Shown: positions 4,242-13,369 of the stretch, one piece after another
Layout of the letters: every line of letters begins with the position of its first letter
Position numbering within the stretch: the first letter of the stretch is position 1
From: Candidatus Poribacteria bacterium
GTDB taxonomy: Bacteria > Abyssobacteria > SURF-5
Direction of reading: 5' to 3'
DNA length: 13,696 nucleotides
Assembly (NCBI GenBank): GCA_016215705.1
Contig: JACRIR010000259.1
Coordinates: forward strand, 1 to 13,696
Translations under genes and position numbers: made by a program
Notes under the pieces: model-generated
Told to the model about the DNA's origin: nothing
Seen by the model: the letters and a program-made list of their open reading frames with translations, nothing else
Databases searched by the model: none

Positions 4242-5156
4242 TTACGTTTGATTTGCCTGCGTTGCGGCTGCTGACACACCCGTTTCATCAATCACCCAGA
4301 CCGGACACGTCGCCTGCCTGGCAAGTCTGAGGGCCGTGCTCCCGAAGAGGAACTCCTCAGTGCGGGAGAAGCGATGTCTTCCTGTTACAATCGCGGTATG
4401 TCCGTGTGACTTTTGGTGGGCCAGTATGACATCGGAAACTCGCGTGTTCTGACCCTCTTCTAAACAGGTCTCGAGGCGAGATTCTTCGAATCCGTTTTGG
4501 AACAGATACTCTTTTGCCTTTCCCAGAACGGAAGCCGCCGTATCCGACAATCTGGCTCGTTGGCTTTGCTGTTCTTCCGCAGAGGCAAAGAGCTCCGGGT
4601 TGGGATTGTTTGCGACATATAAGAGCGTGACTCTTACCTCCGGCGAGCGGCCGAACAAACGGGCGACGTAGCGGACGGCATTCATGGATATCTCTGATTC
4701 ATCCAGATGCACCAGCAGATTCTGCTCGGTGGAGAAGCTCGCGGCGGGAAGCGGCTTTGCGTCGGAAAGAGTCTGATAATAGCTGCGCCTGATGTCCGCG
4801 TACGTGCCCGTGAAGAATCCTACGGCAAAGAGGAGGAGTATCTGGATGCCGTTGCTCACGGCCATCTCGGCGGTAGCCATCATTACAGTTACCGCATGAT
4901 ACATGTATACCAGACTGATCGCGCTCGCGGCGGCCAGCCCGCCCTTCTTACCGAACCACCAGCCGGAAAGCGACACGGGAGCGAAAAAGAGCGCCTGCAG
5001 TAAGACGTGCAGGTACATGAGGTGGCCCGGTGTCCCATAGTGGAACAGCGTGATGCCCGCGATAAGGCTGGCAACAAGAAGTATTCTCGCATTTCTGTCC
5101 GTCATTGGCAGCATATCGTCATCTCCACGAACATCGGGCGCCGTCCATCCCATCAT
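4242..5156 (-). CDS. Membrane protein with universal stress (UspA) domain
   Basis: 304 aa. Residues about 23-120 form four hydrophobic segments containing HY...LHVLLQALFFAPVSLSGWWFG..GGL, a module repeated in the HD-GYP protein at 6625 and loosely similar to the KdpD-type DUF4118 membrane domain. Residues about 144-290 are a UspA domain: NLLVHLDESEISMNAVRYV at the start and TGRHRFSRTEEFLFGST...CPVWVID at the end. The nucleotide-binding loop keeps the first Gly and the GS but has GRHR instead of GxxG, so ATP binding is uncertain. The ATG overlaps the upstream stop codon as ATGA, implying translational coupling. An internal ATG at 5114 with GGAG 8 bp upstream is an equally good start (290 aa). 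Probable role: membrane stress sensing or signalling. Confidence 0.8.
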   Translation of the reverse strand: MMGWTAPDVRGDDDMLPMTDRNARILLVASLIAGITLFHYGTPGHLMYLHVLLQALFFAPVSLSGWWFGKKGGLAAASAISLVYMYHAVTVMMATAEMAVSNGIQILLLFAVGFFTGTYADIRRSYYQTLSDAKPLPAASFSTEQNLLVHLDESEISMNAVRYVARLFGRSPEVRVTLLYVANNPNPELFASAEEQQSQRARLSDTAASVLGKAKEYLFQNGFEESRLETCLEEGQNTRVSDVILAHQKSHGHTAIVTGRHRFSRTEEFLFGSTALRLARQATCPVWVIDETGVSAAATQANQT

Positions 5157-6115
5157 CCTATCAGCGATGCGGCGTCGCCAATGTCCTCCAGAATCTCATC
5201 AACTGCTTCATAGTAGACTTCAGCGCCCGCAGCAAAGCTCATAAGCACGCGATTCAATTTCTCAGGGACATACGGATACAGCTTTCTCCAATTCATGAGC
5301 CGGGATGGTTGAACCACCGAAAAATCCGTCCGTTCGAGACTCTTCACCCTCTGCGCCGCCTCTTTGTCCAGGTTCCCGACCTGGAAGCTCCGTTCTCCCT
5401 TTCCGATCATTTCGCTGAGTATGTCGGCGACGCCGAGTAGGTCAAGCGCGAAGGGCGCTTCATTGAATATGAAGTCGTAGTCAAAATCGATCCACCGAAG
5501 CTTTCCCATCTCTTTATCAAGTATGAGGTGGTCACTCCGAACGTCTCCGTGCCGTATCCCCCGGCTGTGCAGAGAGCTGAGCGCCTTCAAAGCAGGAAGA
5601 AACAATTGCAGGAGCGCAGGCAGTGATTCGTGAAAATACCGCTCATGTGATTCCGGAGAGTCCACCATGATTTCAAAAAGTGTCTTGCCGGCGATGTAGT
5701 CGATGAGGCGTATGTGATTGGTGGCGTCCACCAGAACCGTTCGTCCCTGCATGAAATGCTCGAGTCCTTTGACGGATTCGAGCACGCGTCCTTCCTTGGC
5801 GGGACTGCGAAAACAGCGAACGATGTATTCGCCGTACTTCAGGTCGAATTGTTCGAGGTAAACCAGCTTGATAATTTTCCGTTTTCCCGTAAACGCCTCG
5901 TATGCGTACTTCACCCAATATTTCGGCTCGTCATCCAGCCCGAAGCTCTTCTCTTTGGCCGTTCCGCTCACCACGTAGTGCGCGCCGTCAAGCAGCACGA
6001 CATCGCCACGGTTGATCGAAAAGAAGTCGTCCAGCTTCTCATGGATTCTCACGCCGGCCGGGCGGAAACTAAGAAACCGCTCCACTTCGGAACCCAAATC
6101 CAAATCCTGGGGCAT
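5153..6115 (-). CDS. Protein-kinase-like protein (HGD type)
   Basis: 320 aa from the ATG at 6115, which has a purine-rich GGAAGGGAAG ribosome binding site; a longer frame reaches a TTG at 6184 but lacks one. The C-terminal half shows an atypical protein kinase core: HGDVRSDHL (residues 189-197) stands for HRDxKxxN, and WIDFDYDF has Asp210 in place of the DFG Asp. Lys69 in YWVKYAYE is a candidate for the ATP-anchoring lysine, and DYIAGKTLFEIM at 139-150 resembles a hinge. HGD replaces HRD, as in aminoglycoside-phosphotransferase-like and lipopolysaccharide kinases, so the phosphate acceptor could be a protein or a small molecule. First gene of a two-gene minus-strand operon with the USP membrane protein. 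No transmembrane segment is visible. Confidence 0.8.
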   Translation of the reverse strand: MPQDLDLGSEVERFLSFRPAGVRIHEKLDDFFSINRGDVVLLDGAHYVVSGTAKEKSFGLDDEPKYWVKYAYEAFTGKRKIIKLVYLEQFDLKYGEYIVRCFRSPAKEGRVLESVKGLEHFMQGRTVLVDATNHIRLIDYIAGKTLFEIMVDSPESHERYFHESLPALLQLFLPALKALSSLHSRGIRHGDVRSDHLILDKEMGKLRWIDFDYDFIFNEAPFALDLLGVADILSEMIGKGERSFQVGNLDKEAAQRVKSLERTDFSVVQPSRLMNWRKLYPYVPEKLNRVLMSFAAGAEVYYEAVDEILEDIGDAASLIG

Positions 6116-6624
6116 CTTTTTTCTTCCCTTCCGGTCTTGTAGACGAAGGCCCGGCAGATTCGCGCCTGCACATTTGTCGGACAATCAATCTGAGACCTGC
6201 AAATATGAGATATGATTGCAACTTTTGTGCCGATGTTACCAGTGGGTTTTGCCGGTCCAAGTGAGAATGCGCAAAGGTTTGGAATACCGCTACTTCGAGC
6301 CATCTTGCTCGTAAGACAGGTGGATATCGAGAAACCCGCAAGTGGCGCCGCTGCAAACAAACGGACTCCGTTTGTCCAATATCAAACACCGGACGAGGAA
6401 GGAATTACGAACGGCGCGAACCGGAACAGGTCTAGATAATTCGCACATATTAGCGCCCTTCGCGGATTCATGCGTTATAATAGGGCCAAGGGAAACGCAC
6501 ACGCAGCCACCAGCGCGCGGGACATGCAGAGGGAAGTATTCATTGCAAACGACACTGACTGTGGATTTCCGCCCACGCGGGAAAGACAAAGAGAGTTCGA
6601 ACCCATCGTAACCGCCGGACACAT
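6116..6624. other. Divergent intergenic region
   Basis: About 510 bp between the kinase-like gene and the HD-GYP gene, no credible gene. It must hold both promoters; a TATAAT at 6476-6481 could be a -10 box for the HD-GYP gene, but no matching -35 was found. At about 6561-6587 lies a TTTCCGC...GCGGGAAA palindrome, which resembles the very common CCCGC/GCGGG environmental repeat family. Confidence 0.45.
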
Positions 6625-7759: not shown

Positions 7760-8446
7760 TTAGGCGCAATTGGATTTTGGGATGACATTAAACCGCATGT
7801 GGCAATATTCAGCACCCTCGACTGCCTGAACGCAGGGTCGCTCAAACTGACCGCCCCAGTACTCCATGAGAGCGAAATCCAGGTTGCAGAAGCAGGCCAG
7901 GCACAGGTCCTCAGCGTGGTGCTTTCGGAGAAAATCGATTATGGGACATCGAAACCATTTTATGGCTATGACATTGTTTTCGTCATCGTCAGGAACAATC
8001 TCGAAGCGATAGCCCGGCTCGCTGAAAGGAAACAGCAAGAACATTCTCACGCAAATACGGATTTGTTTCCTGACATCACGTGAAATCAGTCGAGCTGTGA
8101 GTCGAGGTAAAAACGCGAATGCCTTATAAGGATGCCATAATGTATCATTTATTAATACCTTGGCATAGTCTTTGTCGATGCCTTCCCCCAAGAGGGTTCT
8201 GTAGAATGCCAGACCGAGGCCCGCGGCTCTCACATTGAGTTGTGCGCCGATTGTCGGTTCATCGGGAATTTCGCGGGCAAGCTCGTGGTAATTTTGCCAG
8301 AGCTTGTCAAGAATGCGGTTTACGTCGGCCGAATCAAACTTGCCGCATTCCGGTTTTTGGAGATGTCGGTTTCGATCTGTAATAGCATTGTGCGCGGCGT
8401 GTTTCAGGAGAAGTTTGCCAATTCTTCTAAAAACGGCTTCGTTCAT
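7760..8446 (-). CDS. ATC hydrolase-family protein (PF14196-like)
   Basis: 228 aa from the ATG at 8446, preceded by GGGAG with 7-bp spacing; the frame stays open upstream but overlaps the methyltransferase gene and is non-coding there. The C-terminal part has the pattern of the L-2-amino-thiazoline-4-carboxylic acid hydrolase family: Cys167 in RCPIIDF, then LCLACFCNLDF (Cys182, 185, 187), FERPC and GAEYCHMRF (Cys215). The founding enzyme opens the thiazoline ring of ATC in bacterial cysteine production, but most family members in anaerobes have no known substrate. It follows the methyltransferase gene by 31 bp on the same strand, so the two are probably co-transcribed and may act on one compound. 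Family call fairly sure, reaction not. Confidence 0.75.
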   Translation of the reverse strand: MNEAVFRRIGKLLLKHAAHNAITDRNRHLQKPECGKFDSADVNRILDKLWQNYHELAREIPDEPTIGAQLNVRAAGLGLAFYRTLLGEGIDKDYAKVLINDTLWHPYKAFAFLPRLTARLISRDVRKQIRICVRMFLLFPFSEPGYRFEIVPDDDENNVIAIKWFRCPIIDFLRKHHAEDLCLACFCNLDFALMEYWGGQFERPCVQAVEGAEYCHMRFNVIPKSNCA

Positions 8447-10080: not shown

Positions 10081-10644
10081 TCAATTCGGGCGCCGTGGAG
10101 GCAACGCGCAAACGGCGCCCTCGGCCGGCGGCAACTGTACGGCCTCGTTTAACACATGTCCCGCATGAGCAATAGCCGCCGCCATGCACAAACCAACAAT
10201 CTCCTCAATGCTGAATTCCTTCTTGATCTCATCGAACAGGTCGTCGGAGACGAAATGGCGCGCGATCCCATCTGACAACCGAACCGCCAAATACTGCCTT
10301 CGGGTTAGCGGCTCAGGATTGACCTCCTTCTCAAACACTGCCCATTCTATCGGCTCAACTGCGCTGCGCACGGCAGCCGTCCGGTGAGTCACTCAGTAAT
10401 GGCAGCCCGTAACAAATGCCCCGCGCAACGCCATAAGCTCCCACGTGACGGGATCCACCGCCGTTGCCGTTCCGGTGATGAGGTGAACCCATCCCCGAAG
10501 AGCTTCCGGAACGTGGGCAATCACGCCGAACATCCGCGAGTCGCGCCACCATCCAACTTGGGTATCGCGCAGAATCGCGTTAATGTCCTCGTCGGACGCT
10601 TCACCCGGAGCGACCGGTCTGATTCGTTCTTCTTGTGCTTTCAC
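10081..10644 (-). CDS. AhpD/CMD-like redox protein, candidate selenoprotein (in-frame TGA)
   Basis: 187 aa if the in-frame TGA at 10393-10395 is read as selenocysteine. The frame is continuous on both sides of this single TGA. Before it: FGVIAHVPEALRGWVHL (39-55) and WELMALRGAFVTGCHY (68-83); after it: VTHRTAAVRSAV and LTRRQYLAVRLSDGIARHF...DDLFDEIKKEFSIEEIVGL. Both halves match the carboxymuconolactone decarboxylase/AhpD fold. The TGA is residue 84, giving Cys81-x-x-Sec84, where the family has CxxC; Glu69 is 12 residues before Cys81, as the catalytic Glu of AhpD is before its first Cys. The family His normally 7 after the first Cys is Arg88 here, with His87 beside it. Start is GTG 10644 after GGGGTGG, less certain. 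AhpD-like selenoproteins are known from metagenomes. The alternative is a pseudogene with a nonsense mutation. Confidence 0.75.
10354..10388 (-). promoter_or_regulatory. Candidate bacterial SECIS hairpin after the TGA
   Basis: Directly downstream of the TGA the mRNA can fold: ACGG-CUG-CCGU forms the top (10370-10380) with GC pairs below a G-G mismatch, and CUCA/UGAG (10385-10388 with 10354-10357) can close the base through an internal loop. The apical loop is 17-19 nt after UGA, inside the 16-37 nt window known for bacterial SECIS elements; if the top G-C pair opens, the loop is GCUGC with a G in first place, as expected. Folded by eye only. Confidence 0.45.
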
Positions 10645-10715
10645 AATTCCACCCCTGTCTCCCGCGACATCGTCCCATGTTTTCTCACGCACTTCGCATA
10701 TGTTTGATAACTCAG

Positions 10716-10736: not shown

Positions 10737-10790
10737 CAAGGAGAAGCAGAATCGCTTGCTTAAGAGAGTAACACGTACAGCATTTCCGCA

Positions 10791-10899
10791 GGGGCGACCC
10801 GCCGGGTCGCCCCCCATAAGAGCAAATCACAACTGAAAGACCTGAACAGGATTGCGCTCGACGCCCGCCGGGTCGCCCCCCACAAGAGCAAATCACAAC
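10791..10899. repeat. Palindrome and two 36-bp direct repeats
   Basis: A perfect hairpin GGGGCGACCC-GCC-GGGTCGCCCC lies at 10791-10813. A 36-bp unit starting CCCGCCGGGTCGCCCCCC occurs at 10798-10833 and again at 10864-10899 with one mismatch (period 66 bp), so the second copy keeps only the right half of the palindrome. They fill the spacer between the TIGR04076-like gene and the selenoprotein-like gene and look like a REP element that was partly duplicated. Confidence 0.65.
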
Positions 10900-10941
10900 G
10901 GGAATTCATGACATCGAAACTGAATAGTATAAGGAGCCGGC

Positions 10942-11367
10942 TTATGGCCGATCTTCCACCTTCAGTTCCATGACAATGTGGCCAAAGCCGCCGCACCGCA
11001 CTCCGACATCGGGACAGCCAGTTCTTTTGAACGCCATCTTGTTTGCGTCAAGGCCGGCGTACAAAAGCTCGTTTGCCCCAAAAACCAGTTTCTCCAGACC
11101 TCCCAAAGCATACATGCACACTTTCTCCGGACAGAGCCTGGTCAAGAGGTTCCCCGCCGCGTCGAAATAAAATTTGTCGCCAACCATATGCCGGCTGTTA
11201 CACCCGTGCGATTCGACAACCTCTGCAATGATCGTCTTATTCATCAGCCCGGCCGCCTTGGCGAGAATCTCTTCATTTCGCGGATTCTCTCTGAAGAGTT
11301 TCATCTCTTCATCGGTATACCCCAAATGCTGCTGGAAAAGACTCCATACGCTTTCGTCGATCTTCAT
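10942..11367 (-). CDS. TIGR04076-like Cys-rich protein
   Basis: 141 aa with a very strong ribosome binding site (GGAGGAG) before the ATG at 11367. It starts MKIDESVWSLFQQHLGYTDEEMKLF, a helical segment. The C-terminal part has Cys56-x3-His60 in GCNSRHMVGDKFYF, LCPEKVC (Cys79, Cys84), TGCPDVGVRCGG (Cys118, Cys125) and ends in HIVMELKVED. The ESHGC...H.VGD.F...LCP...CPD order resembles the uncharacterised TIGR04076 family, seen often in anaerobes. Its conserved Cys and His residues suggest metal or cofactor binding, but no function is established. The same-strand selenoprotein-like gene follows after about 300 bp of repeats, so co-transcription is uncertain. Confidence 0.7.
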   Translation of the reverse strand: MKIDESVWSLFQQHLGYTDEEMKLFRENPRNEEILAKAAGLMNKTIIAEVVESHGCNSRHMVGDKFYFDAAGNLLTRLCPEKVCMYALGGLEKLVFGANELLYAGLDANKMAFKRTGCPDVGVRCGGFGHIVMELKVEDRP

Positions 11368-11396
11368 GTTCTCCTCCTCGCTTTGTACTACTATCA

Positions 11397-11494
11397 TGTC
11401 ATGACAAGATCTTTGGGTACTCACGCGGGTTCTTCGTAGGGGCACGGCGCGCCGTGCCCCTACAAGTACCTACATAATTAACTTGACCTGACAC
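11397..11494. mobile_element. MITE-like palindromic element, copy 2
   Basis: Second copy of the element at 2351-2450, same orientation. The central 28-bp palindrome is at 11436-11463. The ends form imperfect 14-bp terminal inverted repeats: TGTCATGACAAGAT at 11397-11410 against AACTTGACCTGACA at 11480-11493 (11 of 14 match). It begins 29 bp upstream of the TIGR04076-like start codon, so it must overlap or shape that gene's promoter. Confidence 0.6.
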
Positions 11495-11744: not shown

Positions 11745-11773
11745 TTGATTCTATATCGGACATCCGTTATAAT
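11745..11773 (+). promoter_or_regulatory. Promoter of the TetR gene with palindromic operator
   Basis: TTGATT (11745-11750) and a consensus TATAAT (11768-11773) are separated by exactly 17 bp. Within the spacer and into the -10 box lies TATATCGGA-CA-TCCGTTATA (11752-11771), a palindrome with 8 of 9 pairs matching. This is where a TetR repressor would bind to block its own promoter, so autoregulation is likely. The start codon is 24 bp after the -10. Confidence 0.7.
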
Positions 11774-11797: not shown

Positions 11798-12391
11798 ATG
11801 CCGAAGATCGTAGACCATGATTCGAGACGTGAGGAGGTCGCGCAGGCCGTGTGGCAGGTCATCGCCAAACGAGGAATCGGCGCGACCACCATACGCGAGA
11901 TCGCGCGTGCTGCTCGGTGTTCGACGGGCGTCCTTGCTCACTACTTCAAGGACAAGAATGAACTACTTCTTTATGCCCTTCGCATCGCATCGATGCGGGC
12001 GGCCAACCGCATGCAGAAACGAATGCTTGAATCGGCGGGAGGAGAAACCTTGCGTAGGGTAATTTACGAGGCATTGCCCATTGACAAAGAGCGGCGGACG
12101 GAATGGCAAATATGGGTGAGCTTCTGGGGGGAGGCGGTAAGCAACGCCTCTTTTGTAAAGGAACAGAAACGGCGATATATCGAGTGGCGCGCTTTCGCGC
12201 GAGACCTTCTCCTCGAAGAACAAAGGGCAGGACGCATCCGGAAGGATATCGACGCGAAGAAGGAGGCCGACTCTATCATCGCGCTTGTTGACGGGGTCGG
12301 GCTTCAGGCCACGATCGAGCCACGGCGCCTGCCGCCGAAACGCCAGCGCGAAATTGTGGACCGGTATCTCTCCACTCTCTCTTGCCGGTGA
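11798..12391 (+). CDS. TetR family transcriptional regulator, BetI-like
   Basis: 197 aa. N-terminal TetR helix-turn-helix at residues about 11-58: REEVAQAVWQVIAKRGIGATTIREIARAARCSTGVLAHYFKDKNELL. The VSTGVLAHYF-type recognition helix and the C-terminal part (TEWQIWVSFWGEA, ADSIIALVDGVGLQATIEP) resemble BetI-like regulators. GGGAGG precedes the ATG. The promoter carries a good palindrome, so it probably represses itself and the alpha/beta hydrolase gene 15 bp downstream. The inducer is unknown but may be the substrate or product of the hydrolase. Normal family length, intact. Confidence 0.9.
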   Translation: MPKIVDHDSRREEVAQAVWQVIAKRGIGATTIREIARAARCSTGVLAHYFKDKNELLLYALRIASMRAANRMQKRMLESAGGETLRRVIYEALPIDKERRTEWQIWVSFWGEAVSNASFVKEQKRRYIEWRAFARDLLLEEQRAGRIRKDIDAKKEADSIIALVDGVGLQATIEPRRLPPKRQREIVDRYLSTLSCR

Positions 12392-12406: not shown

Positions 12407-13369
12407 ATGAGACGTATGCGCCTCTGGGTTTTGGGAATTGGTGTTATGTTCGGAGTGTTCCTTGCCTTGTATCTTTATCAGCCCCCTGCCGACAACTCGT
12501 ACGCATCTCGGTATCTCAAAGAAAACCCAACGCGTTTTCTGCAACTGGGAGACTACAAGATACACTATCTCGTTCGCGGATCCGGCGCTCCTGTGATTCT
12601 CGTTCATGGCGGGGGAACATGGCTATACTCATTCAGAAACAATATCCCCTCGCTCTCCGAACATTTTACTGTTTACGCCCTCGATATGCCGGGCCATGGA
12701 TATACCGAATATCTCGGCGAGCCTGCGTTTGATCTTGACACCTTCGCCGAGGTCCTGGATGGTTTCATGATGGCAATGAATCTATCCAGCGCGGCACTGG
12801 TTGGCAATTCATGGGGCGGCGGCTGGGCGCTCTATTTTGCGGAAAAGCATCCGGAGAAAGTTCGTGGGCTGGTTCTGATTGATTCGAGCGGCTTCGTTGG
12901 TCGCGACCATTGGGAGTGGGAAATTCTAAAATACCCGCTGCTGGGCGAGGTGCTTTCCAAATTCGTCTCCCGCAGTTGGGTTGAAGATAGCTACAGGAAA
13001 GATGTCTTCCACGATGCCGGTAAAGTTACGGACGAGATCGTCAGCGAGGTGTACAAACCGCTGACGTTTCCCCGAAATCGCCGCGCCCAATACAAGATTG
13101 AGAGAGGTCTCGACTGGAAACTTACCGAAGCCGCAATGGGTTCAATAAAGGCGCCGACCCTGATTATCTGGGGGAAGCAGGACAAATATGTAGACGTCCG
13201 CTCGGCTGAGCGATTCCGGCAGAACATAAGGAATTCAACTGTGGTGGTGCTTGACAACTGCGGTCACACTCCTCATGAGGAATGTCCCGCTGCCGTCAAC
13301 GAACTGATTGTGGAATTCGTCGGCGGGAGCAAATCGGCGAGCACTGGCGCAAGAAACATGACAAACTGA
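12407..13369 (+). CDS. Membrane-anchored alpha/beta hydrolase
   Basis: 320 aa. Residues about 5-24 are hydrophobic (LWVLGIGVMFGVFLALYLY), an uncleaved anchor or signal. The alpha/beta hydrolase fold follows: oxyanion motif VHGGG at 66-70, nucleophile Ser135 in VGNSWGG, acid Asp259 in WGKQDKYVD and His287 in CGHTPHEE. All three catalytic residues are present, so it should be an active hydrolase of an ester, lactone or C-C bond; the substrate is not evident. Start supported by AAAGGAA. The 15-bp gap behind the TetR gene indicates one operon. An enoyl-CoA hydratase gene lies convergent downstream, compatible with lipid or organic-acid breakdown. Confidence 0.88.
   Translation: MRRMRLWVLGIGVMFGVFLALYLYQPPADNSYASRYLKENPTRFLQLGDYKIHYLVRGSGAPVILVHGGGTWLYSFRNNIPSLSEHFTVYALDMPGHGYTEYLGEPAFDLDTFAEVLDGFMMAMNLSSAALVGNSWGGGWALYFAEKHPEKVRGLVLIDSSGFVGRDHWEWEILKYPLLGEVLSKFVSRSWVEDSYRKDVFHDAGKVTDEIVSEVYKPLTFPRNRRAQYKIERGLDWKLTEAAMGSIKAPTLIIWGKQDKYVDVRSAERFRQNIRNSTVVVLDNCGHTPHEECPAAVNELIVEFVGGSKSASTGARNMTN

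Follow-up and report, generated by a model that had tools for sequence, protein, structure and literature searches.

The AhpD/CMD-like gene on the minus strand at positions 10081-10644 of the window (the whole stretch of 13,696 nucleotides that was analysed) very probably encodes a selenoprotein, in which the in-frame UGA at 10395-10393 is decoded as selenocysteine (Sec). Comparative evidence supported the recoding, the position of Sec and the presence of the decoding machinery. The frame runs from a GTG start (10644-10642) to a terminal TGA (10083-10081), and a product of only 83 residues would be made if the internal TGA were read as a stop. The features of the gene, all on the minus strand, were as follows.

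10081-10644, minus: AhpD/CMD-like selenoprotein gene, 187 codons, GTG start, internal TGA = Sec84, terminal stop TGA
10649-10656, minus: Shine-Dalgarno-like AGGGGTGG before the GTG start, read from the sequence
10438-10440, minus: Glu69, counterpart of the AhpD relay Glu, 12 residues before Cys81, invariant in alignment A4 (AhpD spacing from PMC3141380)
10402-10404, minus: Cys81, partner (resolving) thiol of the CxxU pair (alignments A1, A3 and A4)
10393-10395, minus: UGA codon for Sec84, second position of C81-x-x-U84, with TGA at the same codon in the relatives L018, L019 and L020 and TGT/TGC in haloarchaeal homologues

The preliminary description of this DNA had reported, with no strand given, a single TGA in an otherwise continuous frame, placed exactly where CxxC has its second Cys, with a Glu 12 residues ahead of the first Cys, and all three statements were confirmed. 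The motif of the read-through protein is T-G-C81-H-Y-U84-V-T-H87-R, and Glu69, Cys81 and Sec84 stand at the spacing of the AhpD relay, known as Glu118-Cys130 in AhpD (PMC3141380). His87 lies at +3 after the Sec, compared with +4 in AhpD.

A scan of 84,980 species with six peptide patterns, none of which contained the Sec codon, returned three close relatives, one from a Chloroflexota MAG (L018) and two from Myxococcota MAGs (L019 and L020), with identities to the window protein of 78, 78 and 69%, respectively, over the alignment. TGA was present at the identical codon in all three, and hence in the four close family members when the window gene is counted. Since the patterns did not include the Sec codon, a close Cys version bearing the same peptides would have turned up, and none was found among the 84,980 species. 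Haloarchaeal plasmids carry more distant homologues, with aligned identities of 33-42% and E down to 3e-32, and each of the four that were read had TGT or TGC at the site. These proteins, annotated as carboxymuconolactone decarboxylase family proteins (e.g., WP_285928863.1 and WP_222914518.1), are full-length homologues with the same motif region, but they have Cys in place of Sec, Val instead of His87 (alignment A4) and other neighbours, including thioredoxin, an AmiS/UreI transporter and formamidase. The preliminary description had named homologues with neither Cys nor Sec at this site as evidence against its reading; the codons found were TGA in the close relatives and Cys codons in the haloarchaea.

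The same column was occupied by Cys or Sec in about 30 further AhpD-like relatives, with a single exception. This was the SxxT motif of a degenerate tandem paralogue directly 3' of the L020 selenoprotein gene (L020:3697-4251, plus strand), in which CxxU has become SxxT. The paralogue shares 42-44% identity with the window protein and may act as a partner subunit without catalytic activity. A Chloroflexota-centred search also gave numerous remote AhpD-like relatives in which CxxU is encoded with a TGA (L065-L083), one group of which has the motif YCHYUMAA; two entries, L078 and L083, were listed with two TGAs each. No relatives were found in the IMG/VR viral contigs and phage records.

The part of the gene beyond the TGA was found to be under the same regime as the part before it. 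Between the four genes, dN upstream and downstream of the TGA was 0.14-0.24 and 0.14-0.22, respectively, and pS was high to saturated (0.50-0.82 overall, 0.61-0.82 past the TGA), with 66-79 of the 94 downstream amino acids identical. The low dN together with the high pS after the TGA indicated that the downstream part is under protein-level selection in the same frame.

These data bear directly on the alternatives to recoding. That the TGA is a nonsense mutation or a sequencing error in an ordinary Cys enzyme could be suggested by the single base that separates TGA from TGC/TGT and by the single copy of the gene in a fragmented draft assembly, but the same TGA is present in three independent assemblies from other phyla, so that a base-calling error is not credible, purifying selection is strong 3' of the TGA and the genome has a complete Sec machinery. 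This explanation was thus considered vanishingly improbable, and the preliminary description, which had judged a chance nonsense hit unlikely, was borne out by the identical TGA in all three close homologues. It is likewise extremely improbable that two separate short genes, or the truncated 83-residue product as a real protein, are encoded here. Translation might resume at the GTG that immediately follows the TGA (ORF 10081-10392); nevertheless, no start codon is conserved at that place (GTA in one homologue and GTC in another), the TGA lies inside both the fold and the CxxU-H site, and the haloarchaeal homologues are single continuous proteins. Both a pseudogene or error and a split gene were ruled out by the shared TGA and the selection past it. 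A reading of TGA as Trp throughout was also rejected, because homologues have Cys at the site, the SelD of this genome has TGA at a usual Sec place and other genes stop at TGA; as previously stated in the preliminary description, TGA is a true stop in the window, where it ends the genes at 5153-6184, 11798-12391 and 12407-13369.

The machinery for Sec insertion, which the preliminary description had proposed to look for, was complete in the genome of the window (5.47 Mb, 270 contigs), with selA, selB, selC and selD all detected. The selC gene (tRNA-Sec) was located on contig C59 (68 bits, cut-off 47; ARAGORN agrees), selB (371 bits) and selA (580 bits) lie close together on C228, and selD (391 bits, on C134) is itself interrupted by a TGA in frame, within the motif SGGU-ACK. 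The intergenic repeat at 591-655 of the window recurs on the selC contig, and those at 2392-2421 and 11436-11465 recur on the selA/selB contig; the window contig therefore most likely belongs to the same genome; a stray contig was regarded as unlikely on the basis of these common repeats. Ahead of the selenoprotein gene, at 10790-10900, there are GC-rich GGGCGACCCGGCGGG repeat units that likewise occur on other contigs of this genome. Furthermore, a second AhpD/CMD-like gene of another subfamily with an in-frame TGA (CGHU-TKAH) was observed in this genome (L108, G000:C12:4021-4233), and genes of the same type are present in two other genomes of the phylum (CTHU and CSHU).

A candidate signal for decoding was found just downstream of the UGA.

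10362-10378, minus: putative bacterial SECIS hairpin GCTGC-CGTGC-GCAGC (10377-10363) plus one outer pair, from invariant codons and permutation

The codons at +6 to +10 after the UGA (GCT GCC GTG CGC AGC) show no nucleotide difference among the four genes, which elsewhere in these genes is true of only 15 of the 96 degenerate codons that have an invariant residue, and the permutation probability for such a run was 2.5e-4 at this place and 3.4e-3 at any place. The 15 invariant bases would form a 5-bp stem with the loop CGUGC, the apical loop lying 20 nt after the UGA. According to the bSECIS model, a stem of 4-16 bp, a loop of 3-9 nt with a G in the first two loop positions, a distance of 16-37 nt from the UGA and an MFE of at most -7.5 kcal/mol are expected (PMC13188914). 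The geometry fitted in all four genes. The stem is extended outward by one pair in the homologues (C-G, C-G and G-C), and the window has an unpaired G-G there, which amounts to one pair with a compensatory change; with this pair, the hairpins of L018, L019 and L020 reached -8.8 to -9.7 kcal/mol, past the threshold of -7.5, whereas the 5-bp stem of the window alone gave -6.4 kcal/mol and fell short of it. In the window, a hairpin fitting the model follows about 5% of the TGA triplets, and the Rfam matches at this site were to unrelated families at chance level, with no SECIS among them. Single-sequence folding of the window region was no better than that of shuffles, and the hairpin therefore rests on its conservation, by which it is likely to be a SECIS. 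The tRNA-Sec and SelB would decode the UGA as Sec under the guidance of this hairpin.

The assignment to the AhpD/CMD fold was approached through family profiles and a predicted structure. Both halves had been said to match this fold in the preliminary description, which was somewhat overstated by sequence, since neither half alone, split at the TGA, gave a Pfam match, but was supported by the predicted structure. The half after the TGA alone had a weak NCBIfam match, and the read-through product was marginal by sequence, with 23 bits against the cut-off of 23 of the Pfam CMD family (PF02627). The AlphaFold2 model of the read-through protein (mean pLDDT 88.8, pTM 0.85) is a confidently predicted all-helical AhpD/CMD fold, and its comparison with known AhpD/CMD structures by VIA-align gave Z values from 18.4 to 9.9 (14-18 for AhpD-like structures and about 10 for M. 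tuberculosis AhpD). The top row was the tetrabromopyrrole debrominase Bmp8 (Z 18.4, rmsd 2.3, 176 residues, 14% identity), although rows 1-4, which include Bmp8, the AhpD of S. pneumoniae and SMU.961, lie within 1 Z unit, so that the ranking with Bmp8 on top says little.

AhpD-like CxxU selenoproteins as a kind have been on record since 2005 (PMC1088965), occur frequently in marine data (PMC2398784) and also appear in PMC13188914. The preliminary description was accordingly right that such proteins had been reported from marine metagenomes (PMC1088965; PMC2398784), and its suggestion of a probably new member was correct at the level of the subfamily, the kind itself being known. The window protein shares with the CxxU selenoproteins of the Sargasso Sea and GOS selenoproteomes (NF041047, NF041238 and TIGR01926-type) the fold, the Sec on the second Cys and a decoding of the bacterial SECIS type, but it reached no NCBIfam cut-off and fell in a separate clade, which is joined by the haloarchaeal Cys proteins as the neighbouring group. 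The best NCBIfam match was NF053654 (GroundWater_YciW, YciW-related (seleno)protein), a name that marks a family with Sec and non-Sec members; the match was nearly full length (residues 7-173), but its 27.1 bits against a cut-off of 310 mean that the window protein is not a member. The AhpD-related selenoprotein families NF041238 and NF041047 were absent from its matches up to E 0.1. Judged by the NCBIfam cut-offs, the window protein constitutes a separate, new subfamily of the known AhpD-like CxxU selenoproteins.

In a tree of 36 rows, the four Sec proteins and the degenerate copy formed one clade (100/98), which grouped with the haloarchaeal Cys proteins (97/93), and at least 5 changes between Sec and Cys were counted across the tree. 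The Sec machinery of the window genome is 44-45% (SelA), 34-36% (SelB) and 44-47% (SelD) identical to that of the genomes of the Myxococcota relatives, and its SelD is 45% identical to that of the genome of the Chloroflexota relative. No close relatives were found in two other genomes of the small phylum of the window. The identity of 69-78% for the AhpD-like protein, set against 34-47% for the Sec machinery, and its absence from those two genomes suggested that the gene, which is patchily distributed, has probably undergone horizontal transfer between distantly related bacteria.

The neighbourhood of the gene in the window contains the following features.

10942-11445, minus: Cys-rich protein distantly like TIGR04076 (21.9 bits, cut-off 33), between the selenoprotein and TetR genes
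11752-11771, no strand: operator-like dyad (near-palindrome) TATATCGGACATCCGTTATA, just upstream of TetR
11798-12391, plus: TetR/BetI-type regulator (PF13977, 93 bits), conserved neighbour at the four loci

The TetR protein is 41-64% identical to the TetRs beside L018, L019 and L020; PF13977 and PF00440 were matched in L019 and L020, and the L018 copy, truncated where its contig ends, gave PF00440 alone. A dyad, TATATCGGACGTTCGAGATA, stands at the matching place upstream of TetR in L018 and is identical to TATATCGGACATCCGTTATA of the window at 15 of 20 positions; the two are a probable shared operator. The TIGR04076-like, membrane-protein, ATC-hydrolase-like, methyltransferase and alpha/beta-hydrolase genes of the window had no match beside the bacterial homologues. 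The ATC-hydrolase-like gene, at 7763-8443 on the minus strand, has a partial match to ATC_hydrolase (PF14196, 35 bits).

Regarding function, a selenol-based peroxidase/disulfide-reductase chemistry, by analogy with AhpD-like enzymes, is moderately probable. Sec84 would replace the second Cys of the pair, and its reactive selenolate would reduce a peroxide, or some other substrate in oxidised form, while Glu69 and possibly His87 serve in a proton relay. Cys81 would then act as the resolving thiol, turning the selenenic intermediate into a selenenylsulfide that may be reduced by a thioredoxin-like donor, and the TetR encoded nearby may control the locus. P. aeruginosa PA0269 (2o4d/2ijc), which was detectable as a relative of the window protein, has weak (hydro)peroxidase activity and a Glu-Cys-x-Tyr-Cys relay (PMC3141380). 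Both PA0269 (motif CxYC) and M. tuberculosis AhpD (1knc, motif CSHC) share with the window protein the fold and the Glu at -12, but the window protein has Sec for the second Cys and His at +3 rather than +4, and its identity is 22% to PA0269 and about 10% to M. tuberculosis AhpD. The reduction of peroxide with a thioredoxin-like donor was inferred. The Cys homologue of Halorientalis sits between two thioredoxin genes, and no AhpC or lipoamide partner gene adjoins the selenoprotein gene in the window.

Other roles were weighed against this one. It is possible, but on balance rather doubtful, that the selenoprotein has one particular organic substrate and belongs to a small locus for catabolism or detoxification, formed by TetR, a PPOX-type flavin/F420 protein, a SnoaL-like protein and an alpha/beta hydrolase, instead of being a general antioxidant. 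TetR adjoins all four genes, SnoaL_2 was above the cut-off in L018 and L019 and below it in L020, the PPOX-type protein of L018 has a full-length counterpart in L019 and a fragmentary one in L020, and an alpha/beta hydrolase lies near the window gene and two of the haloarchaeal homologues. Nevertheless, no PPOX or SnoaL was seen in the window, and the window hydrolase is only 24% like the L114 hydrolase. The PPOX-type proteins of L018 and L019 are 49% alike. A function as a reductive dehalogenase or another reductase instead of a peroxidase, to which Bmp8 as the best structural match would point, was considered very unlikely, since the scores of Bmp8 and of plain AhpD-like proteins are practically level, function does not follow from a common fold, and the window had no recognisable genes for halogenation or dehalogenation. 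A combination of these ideas, namely a horizontally moving TetR-regulated cassette whose selenoenzyme does a specific reductive step (e.g., dehalogenation, as in the structurally similar Bmp8) and not general peroxide defence, is very unlikely; if true, it would provide a selenol-based dehalogenase on the AhpD fold.

With this protein, read as a selenoprotein, a conserved CxxU subfamily is added to the AhpD-like selenoproteins, one that appears to move between Sec-using bacteria. An annotation taking the TGA as a stop would split or truncate the gene. The haloarchaeal Cys homologues offer a natural Sec/Cys comparison for what selenium gains in the AhpD fold.
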